Shown: positions 40,002 to 50,115 of the stretch, piece by piece
Layout: each line of letters starts with the position of its first letter
Numbering within the stretch: position 1 is the first letter of the stretch
Notes under the pieces: model-generated
Told to the model about the DNA's origin: nothing
Database searches by the model: none
The model's input: only the letters and a program-made list of their open reading frames with translations
Assembly (NCBI GenBank): GCA_018645365.1
Contig: JABGOP010000008.1
Location: 1,801 to 51,915 of the forward strand
Direction: 5' to 3'
Source of the DNA: Candidatus Cloacimonadota bacterium
GTDB lineage: Bacteria > Cloacimonadota > Cloacimonadia > Cloacimonadales > TCS61
Length of the DNA: 50,115 nt
Made by a program: the position numbers and the translations under genes

Positions 40002-40045
40002 TTGAAATAGTTGCTCCTTGATGGAGCGAAATGTCACTATTTCAA
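40002..40045 (-). other. long stem-loop at selenoprotein gene 3' end
   Basis: TTGAAATAGT (40002-40011) and ACTATTTCAA (40036-40045) are perfect 10-bp complements; an inner GCTCC / GGAGC hairpin sits between. The stop codon lies inside the outer stem. It may protect the mRNA end or act with the terminator further on. Confidence 0.6.
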
Positions 40046-42208
40046 TAACAACATTTTATTGCAACCTACTTCTTTGTTGTCGACAATGAGTTTGTAGAAG
40101 TAGATGCCACTTGAGTAATTATTTGCGTCCCAAGTAACTTGTTGGTCTGGTGAATTCGCTATTTGGAGATTTGAGAAAGTTTCCACTTTCTGACCTTTAA
40201 TGTTGTAAATTTCCAATTCAGCGCTTTCGGCACTTTCAGTGTTTAAACTAAATGAAATAGTTGTTTCAGCAGTGAACGGATTGGGGAAGTTGCTTAATTG
40301 ATAATTATTGGTTTCCAATTGGTAGTTATCTTCTGCATTTACGGGGATTTGTAAAGCATCAGGACCACCGTAAGCACCCATATCATTAATAGTTCCATCT
40401 AAATCATTGTAAATAGCATCTGGATTTCCAGCATCGATGCAGGGTGAATTTGAAGTAGTCCACCACGATGCAGTTAAGCCGTCAAATTCCGTACCATAAC
40501 CTGCGGAAGGCGATGCGAAAAGTGGATCAGCATCGATATTGCCAATTCCTTCAAAACCACCATAAATACAACTGTAAGTAGCATCTACATCACTACCTAC
40601 ATTCATATAAAAGTTATTATAAAAACTGAAAATAGAATTTACAATGTTTATGTTAGAATTGAAAATTAACATTTCATTCAGGCTGTTGTTGTTGGCGATG
40701 GTGTTGTTGATGAGATTAACATCAGAACCACTCTTCAAACTAAATGAACCGAAATTACCACTATTATTGACGATGATATTGTTTATGATGGCTGGTGTAG
40801 AAGCCACGCAACCAATACCACCCGTTGCACTTGAACTTGTGTTATTGGCGATGATGTTACGCTGGATGATGACATCATCTGAGCTGTCAACATTGATGCC
40901 AGCTGCGAGTGATGAGCTGGAATTATTGTAAATTAAGCAGTCAGAAACTTCAACACGAGAATCCAAATCTATGGCAATTGCGGAACTATTTGCATTGGAA
41001 ATTTCGCAATTTTTCAAAACATTATTCTGTTGAGTATTTGTGAAACGAATACCTTCCCAGTTATTTTCAGATGTGAAGATAATTGGTTCATCTTCGAATG
41101 CATCTGCAAAAAGTAAACCGCTAACGAGAAGTTGAGCATCTTCTTCAAATAAAATTTCTACGCCAGGATTGATGTAAAGTTGGTTATTGTTAGTAATGCT
41201 TATATCACCTGTAATGATGTATGGATTGTAGCTTTCATCCCAGATTCCAGAAAGATTACCCGAAATATTGGAGCCGTCGGTAACTGTAATGTAATTCTCA
41301 AAAGTATTTTCCACATATTCACCGTTTGCAAAGATGCGCAAAGTAATGTCGTAAGTTCCAACTTCACTATAAAGATAAAATGGGTTTTGAGAAGTGTTGT
41401 CAAACTCACCATCGCCGTCTAAATCCCATTCCCAACTTTCGATTGCACTAGCTGGAAGGGAAAGGTCTGTAAATTGGACGGAAAGATTGGAGGGTCCAGT
41501 TTGTACATTTGCAGAAACGAGTGGAACTGTACCAGTAAATCCCGTTTGAGCGGCTTGTAAAATTTGTTTGTTTCCAGAAAAAGATTGTACGATGACAATA
41601 GCTTTTAAATTGCTTAAATTCCAACCTTCATCCATTGGCAATGCTTCTTCAAAAACAGCAGTTTCACCAACTGAACTTAGAGTAAAATTTTGGTCATCAT
41701 AAGCAGCTACTGAACAAAAATATTCATTATTTATGTATCTCGAAATCATGAAGAGTATTTTGTTGTTTGTAGTTGTGATGTTATCCATTAATTCTACATC
41801 GGCAGTAACCACAAGTTCATTTTGTCCATTCAAGTTTAAAGATAATTCAATTGCGAGTGGACTATCTTGATTGATGACTTGGTTGTATTTTGAAAGGTAA
41901 GTAGGATACATATTTCCACCACCGCCAACGGAAGATAAGTATCCACCAAATTGTGCGTGTGGAATTCCACCAACTCCGTATAAAGACTTTCTAGATGAAT
42001 TACCAGGGCTTGGATTAGAACCGTCACCTTGCCATAATAATGGGATAAAATTATCTAGATTTTCATTCATTTGAGACAACCCGTCCCGGGCGTCTGGGCA
42101 GTAACCTCACCAAGTTTCCGTAAAGACTTCTCCCACCACAACCATCTGCGTTGCAAAAGCAGAAATAGCAGTAACTAACAATAATGTAGCAATGAGTAAT
42201 TTTTTCAT
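40037..42208 (-). CDS. predicted selenoprotein: Omp28-like thioredoxin domain (UxxC), PKD, beta-helix, sorting domain
   Basis: Reading from ATG 42208 (GGAG upstream) gives a signal peptide, then GEVFTETW, then in-frame TGA at 42107-42109, then GYCPDARDG and an open frame to 40037: 723 residues with selenocysteine at 34. U34 and Cys37 form UxxC at the place of the WCxYC motif of Omp28/thioredoxin-like proteins, and GGIPHAQF supplies the expected cis-Pro loop. Then come a PKD domain (about 230-310, DLDGDGEFDN), a right-handed beta-helix with N/S-rich repeats (about 330-560), and a C-terminal sorting domain. A SECIS-like stem-loop begins 11 nt after the TGA. No ribosome binding site precedes the first ATG after the TGA, so readthrough rather than a second gene is needed. 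It is the last gene of the dsbD operon. Confidence 0.85.
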
Positions 42209-42474
42209 TTTTTCTCCTTTTTATTTTACTAAAATCATTTTATTAAGTTCTGAACTTTTGCCATCTACATTTAATTGGTAGAAATAAACACCACTTGAGA
42301 AATTATGTGCGTCCCAAGTAACTTGTTGGTCTGGCGAATTAATGATTTGGATATTTGAGAAAGTTTCCACTTTCTGACCTTTAATATTGTAGATTTTCAA
42401 TTCAGCGCTTTCGGTGCTTTCAGTGTTTAAACTAAATGAAATAGTCGTTTCACCAGTAAATGGGTTGGGAAAAT
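40107..42474 (-). repeat. two near-identical sorting-domain DNA segments
   Basis: About 184 bp at 40107-40290 and 42291-42474 encode the sorting domains of two neighbouring genes and are very similar in DNA, with runs of more than 20 identical bases. The proteins share SLNTES-ESAEL and YNIKGQKVETFSN. This span gives the outer limits; the matching parts are only its two ends. Confidence 0.85.
42074..42095 (-). promoter_or_regulatory. predicted bacterial SECIS element 1
   Basis: Eleven nt after the UGA, AGAC-G-CCC pairs with GGG-T-(T)-GTCT around the loop GGGAC, with one unpaired U on the 3' side. Known bacterial SECIS elements (for example E. coli fdhF) have an upper stem about 11 nt past UGA, a bulged U and G in the loop; the E. 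coli bulge is on the 5' side. Base pairing was drawn by eye. Confidence 0.72.
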
Positions 42475-44408: not shown

Positions 44409-44942
44409 TTAATTTTCTGACGCTTCAGTTTTCAAAGTGTCTATTTTGGTTTCGCTAACTTCCTGTTCTTCAAACCATCTCACAATCACTTCTTCATAAT
44501 GTTTTTCATCACCTCTCTGATAACCGGTATGATCGTAAATAATTGTTCCATCTTGATCAATGATCAGAGTACGTGGGATATTTGTAACGTTAAATTGTTT
44601 TTGAACAATTTTCTTTGGGTCGAATAGCGTATGAAATTTAAAACGATTCGATTTAATATGAGAAACAGCAGCAGATTTTTTTCGTGGTTTATCAACATTG
44701 ATTGCCACAACATTAACATTCGGATATTTTTCATGTAATTCATTTACTTTAGGAAGTCCGTTTTTACAAGGAACACACCATGTTGCCCAAAAGTCTAAGA
44801 TTACTAAACCTTCTTTTTGAAAATCTGATAATTTAACCTGTTTACCTTCAATATTTTCCAATTTAAATTCACCGGCTTTTTCAGCAGCAAATATTTGTAC
44901 TGCTAAAAGCATGATCAGTATAGTTACAAAAACATTTTTCAT
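44409..44942 (-). CDS. TlpA-family periplasmic thioredoxin
   Basis: A 177-residue exported thiol-disulfide oxidoreductase: signal peptide ending IFAA, active site WCVPC (Cys 56 and 59), cis-Pro at NIPRT (Pro 124), and an acidic tail. TlpA/ResA proteins usually act as reductants fed by DsbD or CcdA, which matches the dsbD gene two places upstream in the operon. Gaps to both neighbours are about 10 bp. Confidence 0.92.
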   Translation of the reverse strand: MKNVFVTILIMLLAVQIFAAEKAGEFKLENIEGKQVKLSDFQKEGLVILDFWATWCVPCKNGLPKVNELHEKYPNVNVVAINVDKPRKKSAAVSHIKSNRFKFHTLFDPKKIVQKQFNVTNIPRTLIIDQDGTIIYDHTGYQRGDEKHYEEVIVRWFEEQEVSETKIDTLKTEASEN

Positions 44943-44953
44943 TATATATCTCC

Positions 44954-46075
44954 TTAATTATTTAATGAAACTTCGATAGTATTGTATGCAGTGCATGTGT
45001 TTTGATTATATGGTGTCTCTAAAGTTTGAACCCAGATCACCAGAGTAATATCTTCGGGTAAACCGGTTGCATTATCCATATACCATTGTGGGAGAACATC
45101 AAGTTCATTGATTTCAAAATTAACAGGATCATCCAAATTCAAAGCTGAAATATCTATAGTTACTCGCTTTAAAGCAATGTTGTGATGCGGGTCGCCATGA
45201 TGATTCGGGTATTCCTCATTATAATCTTCCATCAAAACAGCAACCAATGTTAGATTATTAGTTGATATAGCAGTATCAACTTCAATCTGGACAGAACCAG
45301 TAAGTAAAGAATCAGTAAGATTAGTTTGTATATCAGTTAATGAAATTAAGGGTGGTTCCTGTAGAAGTGGAATGATGGCTGTCTCAATTTCAGTTTGAAC
45401 TTCCTCAGCGCTTGGTGCAGAATAAATTATGTTTGCATTTCCATTAACAATTCCAAGAGGTAATGTACCAGTATTTGGATAGTAACCAAATACATCAGCA
45501 AAATCACCGGCGAGCTGATCACCAACATGATATTCCACATAAGAGAATCTACTACCGTACTGCATTCTGAGGTTATGCAAAGCTTCTTCTGCACTTGGGC
45601 AATTGGAACACCATTGTCCTGTAAATAGCTCTATAACAACATTTCTCATATCAGCCTGGTTGCCATAAAACTGGTATGAATCTTCAGTTTCTATTAAAAC
45701 ATCAGACATTAAAGTATCCATAAATGTGGTTTCTGAATCAAGACTTGTAACCAATAATCTCCAATCTATTGTAAAAGCGTTTGTATCAATTATTGTGGCT
45801 TCAAAGGTCAAAGGCATATTTATATAAGAAAAAGCTTTATAAAATATTTCAACATCAGATTTAATTAAGCCATTATTACTATAATCATTATGAAAGAAAT
45901 TCATAATGTCGGAAACATCTTCGGTTGGCAATATGGTTTCAATTGAATCTGCAAAAGTAGTGAAGAAATCGATTATGTAATTTTCATCCACAATCTCTGG
46001 TTCGAATTTATGTTCAAATCGGTCACAAGCAAAGATAGAGAGAAATATTAAGCCCAAGACAAATATTTTATTCAT
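44954..46075 (-). CDS. Omp28-like lipoprotein with CxxC thioredoxin domain
   Basis: A 373-residue lipoprotein (LSIFAC, lipid Cys 17). Residues ~25-135 are unrecognised. Residues ~145-260 form a thioredoxin-like domain of the Omp28 kind with IELFTGQWCSNCPSAE (Cys 156 and 159) and a Leu-Pro at the cis-Pro place (TLPLGIVNG). A beta domain follows. It is the Cys counterpart of the UxxC domain in the selenoprotein at the end of the same operon, which supports reading UGA there as Sec. Its ATG overlaps the dsbD stop by one base. Confidence 0.85.
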   Translation of the reverse strand: MNKIFVLGLIFLSIFACDRFEHKFEPEIVDENYIIDFFTTFADSIETILPTEDVSDIMNFFHNDYSNNGLIKSDVEIFYKAFSYINMPLTFEATIIDTNAFTIDWRLLVTSLDSETTFMDTLMSDVLIETEDSYQFYGNQADMRNVVIELFTGQWCSNCPSAEEALHNLRMQYGSRFSYVEYHVGDQLAGDFADVFGYYPNTGTLPLGIVNGNANIIYSAPSAEEVQTEIETAIIPLLQEPPLISLTDIQTNLTDSLLTGSVQIEVDTAISTNNLTLVAVLMEDYNEEYPNHHGDPHHNIALKRVTIDISALNLDDPVNFEINELDVLPQWYMDNATGLPEDITLVIWVQTLETPYNQNTCTAYNTIEVSLNN

Positions 46076-47742
46076 TATTTATCTCCTAAATTTTCTTTTA
46101 ATTTGTTTAGAATCATCTCTTTTGTGATAATTTCTGGGAAGACAATTGGTGCTTTTCCGTCGATGAAAAGTACATAAAGAGGAACACCAGCTCTGTCAAA
46201 TTTTGCTAACCATTCATTAATGATATCGTTTTTCTTCGTATTGTCACCGCGTAACATTTGCACATCATATTTTTTGAAAGCACTTTCTATTTTATCTGTG
46301 AAAAGAACGCTGGTTTCGTTTGTTTTGCAAGTAAGACACCATTCAGCTCCAAAATCTAAAAATACAGATTTCCCATTATTTTGATATTCAGCTAAAAGTT
46401 CTGGTGAGAACTTTTGCCAATCGCGTGGATAGTGGGCGTTATCTTCTGTTTGATGTGCATCAGCAGGAGCGTAATCCAAGAGGACAAATCCCAAACTGAC
46501 AGCTAATAAAATAGCTGAAATAGTAGCAATCCACTGTTTTCTTTTGGAAAATTCTGGACGAGCAAATCTACCGTAAATCCAAGCTGACATTCCCAAAACG
46601 ATAAGGTAAAGGAGTAGATTCAGAAAATCGCTATTATTAACCAAAAATGAGAGTGAACGAATGAGATAGAATGCGGTGAGGAAGAGCAAAAATCCCATAA
46701 TTTCTTTGAAAATATTCATCCATTCGCCGGGTTTTGGAATGATTTTTATTGCTTTTGGCCATATTCCTAGTAGGATAAATGGAAAAGCAAGTCCAAGACC
46801 GATAAGAATGAAAATCGCGAAAATCATTATGGCAGATTGTGAAAATGCGAATCCAAGAGCCGCTCCCAAAAATGGGGCAGTGCAGGGTGTAGCTAAAAGT
46901 ACTGCGAAAATTCCACTCAAAAATGAACCGGTTAATCCGCCTTTCATTGAAGCTTTGGTTGCAGTTTGCATTCCCGGTGCACGGATGATAAATACATCAA
47001 AAAGTGAAAGTGCAAAAACGAAAATTAAAATGAGCAGACCAGTTACAAAACCTGCATTTTGGAATTGGAAGCCCCAACCAACATTTTCACCAGCCATTTT
47101 CAAAATAACGATTGCAGTCGCCATGACAATGAACGAAACTACGATGCCAGCTGTGTAGGCAAATGAACTTCGCAAAATTTGTTTTTGGTCTTGCTGGCTT
47201 TGCTTTACTAAGCTCATCGCTTTGATGGAAAGCACTGGTAAAACGCAAGGCATAATGTTGAGGATAAGTCCACCAACGAAAGCCATTAATAAAAATTTAA
47301 TTAATTCTTTTGTATTTGACTTTTCGGTAGGAATCTGATTTCCAAGAGGCAGTTCAATTTCCACCTCTTCTGGAAACATGCAAGTGCCAGATTCTAAACA
47401 CATTTGGTAGCTGGCGTAAATTTTTATGTTGTCTATTTTTGCATTTTCACCAACTGAAAATTTCTTTATTAAAAGCACATTGCCATTGTATTGCACCAAA
47501 CCGTCTGCTGATTTATGACCTTCAGGATAGATGGTTTCTTCGAAATTTAGGCCATCAATCTCATCAGTTTCCACATAAAAGAAATCTTTTTGCAGGTTGA
47601 TGTGCATTTTCTCTGGAATAGAAAATGTTACCTCTATTTGCGAATCGTTTATGATTGCTGAAACTACTTCATTTGTGTTTTGAGCAAAAAGGAAAACGCT
47701 CATCAACAATACTACCGCTAAACTAATTTTCTTAAAACCCAT
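46075..47742 (-). CDS. dsbD: thiol:disulfide interchange protein DsbD
   Basis: DsbD carries electrons from cytoplasmic thioredoxin to the periplasm through three redox modules. All six cysteines are visible in the 555-residue protein: alpha domain CLESGTC (115, 121), membrane domain IMPCVLP (166) and ATPCTAP (287), and gamma thioredoxin domain EWCLTC (469, 472). Eight membrane helices fall between about 148 and 425. GGAGG precedes the ATG. It heads a six-gene redox operon and should power the TlpA, Omp28-like and selenoprotein oxidoreductases encoded after it. Confidence 0.96.
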   Translation of the reverse strand: MGFKKISLAVVLLMSVFLFAQNTNEVVSAIINDSQIEVTFSIPEKMHINLQKDFFYVETDEIDGLNFEETIYPEGHKSADGLVQYNGNVLLIKKFSVGENAKIDNIKIYASYQMCLESGTCMFPEEVEIELPLGNQIPTEKSNTKELIKFLLMAFVGGLILNIMPCVLPVLSIKAMSLVKQSQQDQKQILRSSFAYTAGIVVSFIVMATAIVILKMAGENVGWGFQFQNAGFVTGLLILIFVFALSLFDVFIIRAPGMQTATKASMKGGLTGSFLSGIFAVLLATPCTAPFLGAALGFAFSQSAIMIFAIFILIGLGLAFPFILLGIWPKAIKIIPKPGEWMNIFKEIMGFLLFLTAFYLIRSLSFLVNNSDFLNLLLYLIVLGMSAWIYGRFARPEFSKRKQWIATISAILLAVSLGFVLLDYAPADAHQTEDNAHYPRDWQKFSPELLAEYQNNGKSVFLDFGAEWCLTCKTNETSVLFTDKIESAFKKYDVQMLRGDNTKKNDIINEWLAKFDRAGVPLYVLFIDGKAPIVFPEIITKEMILNKLKENLGDK

Positions 47743-47919: not shown

Positions 47920-50115
47920 TTATTTCAAAAGAATCATTTTCTTTGTTGAAGTGTATCTACCATTAGATTTCATTTTGTAAAGATAAACTCCAGAAGCTTG
48001 ATTGCTTGCATCCCATTCAACTGAAGTGCTATTTGCATTCAAAGTAAGTGTTTTCACAAGTTGCCCTTTCAAATTGAAGATTTCAAGCGATGCGTCTGCA
48101 TTGTCTTTAATTGAGAAACTGATAGTAGTTGCATTGCTAAATGGATTTGGATAATTACCCATCAAGCTTGCATTATTGAAGATAACCTCTTCGTTTACAT
48201 TAACTGGCTGAACCATAATTGGATCTTCCAGAAGTTGGAAACCATCTGTTGTGAGAACGATTTCTGCAATACCTACATAACCTGTTGTAACTTCGGTAAC
48301 TACGATGTGAAGAGTTTCACCTGCGTTCCACTGTGATTCAAAACTACCACATTGAACCACCAAATATCCTGGTAAAGCAAGAGGATCACCGTAACCACAA
48401 CCAACTGTGGTTTCAGTAACAACTTCTGCTGGTCTTTCCAAAATCCACGCGTTGAATGTAATGTCAGCAGGGTTATTTCCCGCATCTACAGTAAGTGTCA
48501 CAGGGATTATAACATCATCACCACCGTTACTTGTAACTGTGATTTCTGCATGATAGTCACCATCTTCCAGGTCAGCATCGTTGAAAGCAAGAATAATTTC
48601 ATCAGTTGCACCGAAAGCCAATTCACCGAAAGCAGGTTCAATTGTTAACCACTCTTCGTCTCTTCCATCGAAATAAACAACTTCTGCATAGACTGGGTGT
48701 GGTGTGGGGCGACCGAAAACGGGTTCTACATATTCGGAAGTGATAACATAAGAAAGAACAGATTCAGTTGCGCCAACATTTGAAATTTCGAATGTTTGAG
48801 TACCAGGTCCAACTTGGATAATGTCTGAAACACTTACATCGATAATTGGATCTTCGCTTCCGCCACCAGCTGCTTCGATTTGAACATTATCGATAGCCCA
48901 GCCAGAAGCCCACGCACCGTTATCATTTGAGTGGAAAAGAATTTGAACATCAGGTACACCAGCATAATCGCCGAGTGCAATTTCGACAGTTTCCCAATTT
49001 GTGCTAGCAGAAAGATCGAGAAGATTATCCCAGGCTCCACCATTCTCACGAATTAAAACATGAGCAGTTTGAGAGTACTCTGCTGTGAAATAGCTATCAA
49101 AAGAGAGAATAGCGCCATCTATTGCTGAAAAATCCATTGAAGGAGTGATGAGATAATCTACCCCACCATCGTCGTTTGCTTCATCGTCATTTGAACAAGC
49201 GTAGTTTCCATCGCCCGTTGGAACAGCCCAATAGGCACTTGAACCGTCTGCTGTAATCCACCAACCTTGTGCTGAATTTGTGGTCATTTCCCAACCTGCT
49301 GGAATATCTCCACCAGAAAAATCTTCCGAGAAAATAATTTCGAGACTTGGGTCACGCACATCAACAACAAATGTGTCAGTTCCATTTTCGCCATCATTGG
49401 CAATTGCACGAAGTGTAACTTCGGTTGAACTCATAATGTTGTTGGCTGTAACTGTGAGAATATCACCGTCAATTGTAACATCACAAATAGAAGGGTTTGC
49501 AACATCATCAACGATAATTGTGAAATCAACACCATCAGCGTGTGCGAAAACACCGCTTACATCAAAAGTTGCAGTTTCGCCAAATTCAAGTGTGAGATCC
49601 GCAACCGGATTTATCACATTGATGCCGGTAAATGACGCGATTGCAGCTGGAACTGCAGCTACTGCTCCAGTTTGATAATTATCTCCGTACATCAAAATAT
49701 TTGAAGCTCCAATTACACCAAAGAAAGGTACATAGCCGTTACCAAAAGCATTGTAATAACCATAAACTTCGGTAGCAAATGGCATATTTACGCCAATTCC
49801 TGACCAATCAAATGTCGCAATGTAATAAACTTCTTCTGAATTTTGATTATTCCACCAAGCTTCCATAAGAGGCGCCGCCTCTGTACAGCCATCTCACCAA
49901 TCTTCTCCCCAAAAAATTACAACTGCTTTGCCGTTGGCTGTAAGTTCATGAATAGAGTGGTTTTCACCGTTACTGTCTGTCCAAGCATAATCTTGGTCAA
50001 TTACATCGCCAACCTCATAAGCTCTTGATAAATCTGTCTCAACATGACACGCTGTTTTATTTGCAAACAACGAGAATGAGAGCACAATTAACAAAAATAC
50101 TAAAACTTTTTTCAT
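47920..50115 (-). CDS. predicted selenoprotein: thioredoxin-like domain (UxxC) with adhesion-type domains and sorting domain
   Basis: The ATG is the last three bases of the window, so the ribosome binding site is outside. From it runs a signal peptide (cut near LFA), an AhpC/TlpA-type thioredoxin region with VVIFWGEDW, an in-frame TGA at 49894-49896, then DGCTEAAPLMEAWW and an open frame to 47920: 731 residues with Sec at 74 and Cys 77 (UxxC). GYVPFFGVIG supplies the cis-Pro. Further on are a cadherin-like beta domain, a jelly-roll domain (about 240-400, FSEDFSGGDIPAGWEM), an Ig-like domain, an unassigned region with a few Cys, and the sorting domain (NYPNPFSNATTISFS). A SECIS-like hairpin begins 11 nt after TGA. 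It is followed by a terminator; upstream context is unknown. Confidence 0.87.
49868..49882 (-). promoter_or_regulatory. predicted bacterial SECIS element 2
   Basis: Exactly 11 nt past the UGA, AGAGGC and GCCTCT form a perfect 6-bp stem with the loop GGC. Distance and G-containing loop agree with bacterial SECIS elements and with candidate 1. The stem is short and lacks a bulged U. The pairing was drawn by eye. Confidence 0.72.

Follow-up and report, generated by a model that had tools for sequence, protein, structure and literature searches.

Bacterial SECIS elements have E. coli fdhF as their type example, in which a stem within the coding region starts 11 nt after the UGA and carries a small apical loop led by G. 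The published constraints on such elements are a loop of 3–9 nt, a stem of at least 4 bp, a G in the first two loop positions, a loop lying 16–37 nt after the UGA, and an MFE limit of −7.5 kcal/mol (PMC13188914). Two groups of selenoproteins with a UxxC motif, the Omp28-related and the Prx-like, have already been catalogued (PMC13188914). The use of a sense codon for Sec is known from Aeromonas salmonicida, where a tRNASec with a GCA anticodon is reported to read a Cys codon as Sec (Mukai et al., 2016, as cited in PMC10778597 and PMC11415595), and a 'Cloacimonetes type' of tRNASec is credited to the same study by another source (PMC5330540). No description of UGC-encoded Sec in Cloacimonadota was found in the literature searched, which lay outside the text of Mukai et al. 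(2016) itself.

The window, by which we mean the whole stretch of 50,115 nucleotides analyzed here, from an uncultured Cloacimonadota bacterium (positions 1801–51915 of contig C8, ending at the contig end), contains two genes, A and B, that are each interrupted by an in-frame UGA followed by a hairpin (Table 1). The UGA of gene A is followed by the spacer GGTTACTGCCC (11 nt) and the hairpin sequence AGACGCCCGGGACGGGTTGTCT, with arms and loop AGACGCCC-GGGAC-GGGTTGTCT, where a G-C closure turns the loop GGGAC into a GGA triloop, and that of gene B by the spacer GATGGCTGTAC (11 nt) and the hairpin sequence AGAGGCGGCGCCTCT. Both hairpins lie inside the coding region and fall within all four geometric limits on SECIS elements. 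As for the MFE limit, gene A has −9.9 kcal/mol, and gene B falls short by 0.1 as a 15-mer (−7.4 kcal/mol) and reaches −8.0 kcal/mol in a 34-nt context. The first-pass annotation of this DNA had placed SECIS-like hairpins with loops GGGAC and GGC at a common 11-nt distance from the UGA in the two genes; sequence and folding agree with it on the positions, the loops and the spacing, and the E. coli spacing that it gave matches the literature (PMC8659212). The common distance is exact in the two genes of the window, but among their relatives the position of the loop, ∼17 nt after the UGA in family B (the homologues of gene B) and in SelD and ∼19 nt in family A (those of gene A), is steadier than the foot of the stem. 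The window hairpins share with fdhF the in-coding stem 11 nt after the UGA and the small G-led apical loop, and differ from it in sequence, in these two loop positions and in the near-invariant triloop hairpin of family B, CGGC-GGC-GCCG. The contig ends at the ATG of gene B, whose 5′ end may therefore be longer and whose promoter lies outside the assembly.

Table 1. Features of the gene A–gene B region, in coordinates of the window.
Feature	Position	Strand	Remarks
Gene A, 723-aa predicted selenoprotein	40037–42208	minus	ATG at 42208, frame open to 40037 past the UGA; signal peptide, Omp28/HBP35-like thioredoxin domain with UxxC, PKD, beta-helix, T9SS C-terminal tail
Gene A SECIS hairpin (predicted)	42074–42095	minus	9 bp, one bulged U, loop GGGAC at 42083–42087; folding, recoding, family covariation
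Gene A in-frame UGA (predicted Sec codon)	42107–42109	minus	Residue 34, ETW-U-GYCPDARDGL
Gene A ribosome-binding site AAGGAG	42214–42219	minus	5 nt before ATG 42208; read from sequence
TlpA/AhpC-TSA-like thioredoxin	44409–44942	minus	Motif CVPC
Omp28-family lipoprotein-like protein	44954–46075	minus	Cys-type motif CSNC (not Sec)
DsbD-like transmembrane disulfide reductase	46075–47742	minus	Between genes A and B
Gene B, 731-aa predicted selenoprotein	47920–50115	minus	ATG at 50115; signal peptide, AhpC-TSA/ResA-like domain with UxxC, MAM/choice-of-anchor-J domain, T9SS tail
Gene B SECIS hairpin (predicted)	49868–49882	minus	Perfect 6-bp stem AGAGGC-GGC-GCCTCT, triloop GGC at 49874–49876; folding, recoding, relatives
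Gene B in-frame UGA (predicted Sec codon)	49894–49896	minus	Residue 74, GEDW-U-DGCTEAAP

The pairing of both hairpins is maintained by selection, although this is not evident from folding energy. The short hairpins alone are more stable than their dinucleotide shuffles (z = −2.1 and −2.3). Over the 40–50 nt after the UGA, the comparison with shuffled sequence that the first-pass annotation had proposed as a check did not come out in its favor, as folding stability there is not above background (z = −0.5 to −0.8); energy alone is hence weak evidence, and homologues were used for the test. Whole-genome searches with the N-terminal domains gave dozens of homologues for each gene, down to ∼35% identity, most of which contain a single in-frame TGA, located at the corresponding residue and followed by a long frame. 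The Sec site was placed in them by alignment, scans for the pattern W[UC]xxC having missed many homologues. Among genomes with a UCA tRNASec, the Sec position is TGA in 57 of 61 family A rows, the other four having Cys codons, and in 36 of 37 family B rows.

For the null model, synonymous codons were drawn according to the codon usage of the gene itself at the 19 positions that follow the Sec codon, leaving the protein fixed. The pairing of gene A was reached by none of 5000 such sequences and that of gene B by 17 of 5000; the MFE over 34 nt was significant against the same null for gene A (p = 0.007) and not unusual for gene B (p = 0.44). Pairs were then scored in fixed registers counted from the UGA, namely 19-25, 18-26 and outward in family A (seven pairs) and 17-21 and outward in family B (six pairs). 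Family A (60 distinct genes) forms 4.82 of its 7 pairs versus 3.08 when recoded (z = 14.7) and family B (37 genes) forms 5.22 of 6 versus 2.36 (z = 25.3), with no shuffle as high in either case, and the excess persists when the genes are clustered at 80% identity. When the register is slid, pairing in family A drops well below that of the fixed register, while register −3 in family B also pairs well because of GGC repeats. A simple best-hairpin scan, by which 75 of 105 UGA genes passed the four geometric criteria, often picks a competing fold in palindromic GGCGCC, which is why the fixed-register test was preferred.

The compensatory changes that the first-pass annotation suggested looking for in related genomes are present in both families. 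The covariation score is 0.296 in family A versus 0.163 when shuffled and 0.229 in family B versus 0.103, with 0 of 500 shuffles as high in each; because the sequences are related this control may be inflated, and more weight is given to the synonymous test. In family B the DNA CGGCGGCGCCG is nearly invariant, including at synonymous sites, and where its relatives keep CGGC-GGC-GCCG the fourth stem pair in the gene B of the window is A-U instead of C-G, both sides having changed. Outside the phylum, the homologue L156 has a stem that is entirely different yet complementary, ACTGTGG-AGTTG-CCACAGT. Relatives that keep the UGA generally keep the stem, and the wholesale loss of the stem that would have spoken against the first-pass annotation was not seen. 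The case shows that covariation in a specific register can lend support to a bacterial SECIS for which folding energy says little.

The genome from which the window comes has a complete Sec-decoding set, with selA (contig C43), selB (C30), a tRNASec with anticodon UCA adjoining selB, and selD, and in having SelB and tRNASec(UCA) it resembles other systems with bacterial SECIS elements. Its selD (C31, 7181–8104; L270) has an in-frame UGA of its own, in KAAG-U-AGKVSP, and this is followed, exactly in the register of gene B, by the 7-bp hairpin TAAGTCC-GTC-GGACTTA, which is kept in most UCA relatives with compensatory differences. A sister family (f10, ∼50 genomes searched) has apparently lost the Sec trait, as searches there gave neither a SelB above cut-off nor any selA match, matches to tRNASec were weak with one (in G097) barely above cut-off, and its homologues have Cys at the Sec site without the hairpin.

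Given the published constraints, the covarying stem and the Sec machinery, the SECIS-like reading of the first-pass annotation stands, and we are highly confident that both hairpins function as bacterial SECIS elements with which SelB and Sec-tRNASec(UCA) would insert Sec at the UGA in place of termination. They would be ordinary bacterial SECIS elements of a kind already known. By analogy with the family, the complex of SelB, GTP and Sec-tRNASec would bind the apical loop and deliver Sec at the UGA. Meanwhile the ribosome occupies more or less the 11-nt spacer from the UGA to the stem (PMC4513850, PMC8659212), and the apical loop would sit just outside the mRNA entrance once the UGA reaches the decoding site. 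That the hairpins are instead by-products of codon bias and of the conserved protein motifs PxARxGL and AAAP, with no function as RNA, is very hard to sustain. They do lie in conserved peptide stretches and the folding energy of the whole region is ordinary, but their pairing is removed by synonymous recoding with the protein fixed, base pairs change on both sides (pair 12-26 of family B occurs as A-U or U-A), and there is no pairing excess in Cys homologues from genomes that lack Sec or use plain Cys (3.33 pairs versus 3.37 recoded, z = −0.2). We give as little credence to a UGA read as another amino acid, through a code change or a suppressor, or to genes that are simply broken. TGA terminates only 2 of the 30 long frames in the window, which speaks for such a reading, but just two genes there have a plausible in-frame TGA, in each case where a thioredoxin-type motif has its catalytic residue, a position at which homologues have Cys; the frame across the UGA is kept in dozens of species, and the Sec machinery with its UCA tRNASec is complete. 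Standard annotation would cut both genes at the UGA, while full-length exported selenoproteins are very probable.

The same hairpin is also found where the codon is not a stop. In some genomes of the same order the gene A homologues have TGC rather than TGA at the Sec site and keep a SECIS-like hairpin, for example GCGC-GGTCG-GCG (loci L023, L024, L042, L043, L089, L091, L099, L103, L104, L106, L116, L117, L119, L133, and L139). A GCA anticodon was predicted beforehand for the tRNASec of TGC genomes and was then found in eight of eight (G019, G042, G044, G045, G047, G052, G053, and G057; tRNA loci L167–L174), which have GCA tRNASec only, while 51 others examined have UCA. A ninth genome, G046, has both a UCA (L175) and a GCA (L176) tRNASec together with two SelB genes (L302, L303), and either two Sec codes coexist in it or the bin is mixed. 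A phylum-wide pattern survey (125 genomes) gave the same split between GCA and UCA. One extra match to the GCA pattern, in G049, lies apart from the UCA tRNASec of that genome and was taken as chance.

In the eight GCA genomes all 16 sampled family A rows have TGC and none has TGA, and nearly all keep the hairpin. The Cys-codon genes of this group (n = 15, including one TGT gene from G059, a genome in which tRNASec was not found) form 6.20 of 7 pairs versus 3.00 when recoded (z = 13.5), with a covariation score of 0.333 versus 0.153 shuffled. That TGC genes in genomes with a GCA tRNASec keep the hairpin indicates that the hairpin goes with the Sec tRNA rather than with the stop codon. Decoding of UGC plus SECIS as Sec appears to be the best and simplest reading of these sequences. 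We consider it likely that in several Cloacimonadota lineages UGA has given way to UGC as the Sec codon through a tRNASec whose anticodon turned from UCA into GCA, with the SECIS kept, and that G046 may run both codes. Selenoproteins in such lineages would be invisible to stop-codon searches and so would be missed by annotation that seeks in-frame stops.

A less likely account of the GCA genomes, to which we nevertheless assign some weight, is that their tRNA is really a SelB-delivered tRNACys-like molecule of the selC* type, or that the TGC genes are recent reversions from Sec to Cys with leftover hairpins. A selC* tRNACys with a tRNASec-like shape does exist (PMC7609411, PMC11415595), but it has U73, whereas the GCA tRNAs have G73 before CCA, and all eight genomes have a separate, ordinary tRNACys. 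SelD points both ways, in that the hairpin is present in five of the eight and G044, G047, and G057 have plain Cys without it. Among the eight, five have a SelB above cut-off and G045 a partial one, SelB does not exceed the cut-off in G052 and none was found in G053, and selA is present in six and was not recovered in the same two genomes, whose bins are 88 and 82% complete. The TGC gene L121 (G118, contig C63) has the perfect hairpin AAGCGC-TGGAT-GCGCTT in a UCA genome with 6% contamination, as a recent reversion would, although a contaminant contig or a missed GCA tRNA are possible as well. Leftover hairpins would not be expected to covary as those of the TGC genes of several families still do, nor is a run of 16 TGC rows without a TGA in keeping with such reversions. 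In the SelB tree the GCA genomes need at least two changes, though they may still have a single origin.

A switch from UGA to UGC as Sec codon remains our preferred reading, and the sense-codon pattern, comprising a GCA tRNASec, TGC at the Sec sites and a retained SECIS, is seen in the sister genomes and not in the window. It is these that resemble Aeromonas salmonicida, and they differ from the case reported there in spanning several genera of one phylum, in having matched UGA sisters and in the retention of the hairpins. Sister lineages of a single phylum would use UGA or UGC for Sec in one and the same gene, followed by the same hairpin, so that the evolution of a codon switch can be put to the test.

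The products of genes A and B are very probably two exported redox proteins that carry Sec at the UGA. Both pass the cut-off of the type A sorting domain TIGR04183 (23 bits), at 37.1 bits for gene A and 49.7 bits for gene B, and they would be thioredoxin-fold UxxC proteins that type IX secretion probably carries to the outer surface. The cluster also encodes the DsbD-like, TlpA-like, and Omp28-like Cys proteins, making an extracytoplasmic thiol redox route likely, and the exported UxxC proteins would probably be reduced via its DsbD and TlpA genes. For gene B, the matching models are of the AhpC-TSA and ResA type; its predicted Sec takes the first active-site position, as in the Prx-like/TlpA-type UxxC selenoproteins (PF00578, cd02966), from which the gene differs by scoring below the curated cut-offs and by its long exported architecture with a T9SS tail. 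Residues 18–222 of gene A match NF045500, the Omp28-related selenoprotein (GOS_C family), at 69.3 bits (E = 3.8e-19), below the curated cut-off of 200 bits. Sec is first in the UxxC of both (TW-U-GYC in gene A), and gene A has additional PKD, beta-helix, and T9SS tail regions. Judged from its profile matches, gene A is a distant relative of NF045500, its nearest curated family, and is not a member under the curated rule. The predicted structure of its domain (pLDDT 97) has a thioredoxin fold plus a beta domain, and among solved structures it matches HBP35 of Porphyromonas gingivalis best (PDB 5y1a; E = 1.4e-9, TM 0.74 on the query). The order of thioredoxin domain and then beta domain is the same in the two, at 14% identity. 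HBP35, which is exported by the T9SS, uses Cys where gene A has its predicted Sec. The motif also varies among the relatives of gene A, in two sub-families: ten of them (L122, L124, L126, L129, L130, L132, L134, L135, L137, and L141) have adjacent Cys and Sec in GC-U-GxDxxAR in place of UxxC, and in five others (L125, L128, L131, L136, and L138) Sec lies in C-x-G-U-GGDYSxAR, again a motif other than UxxC.
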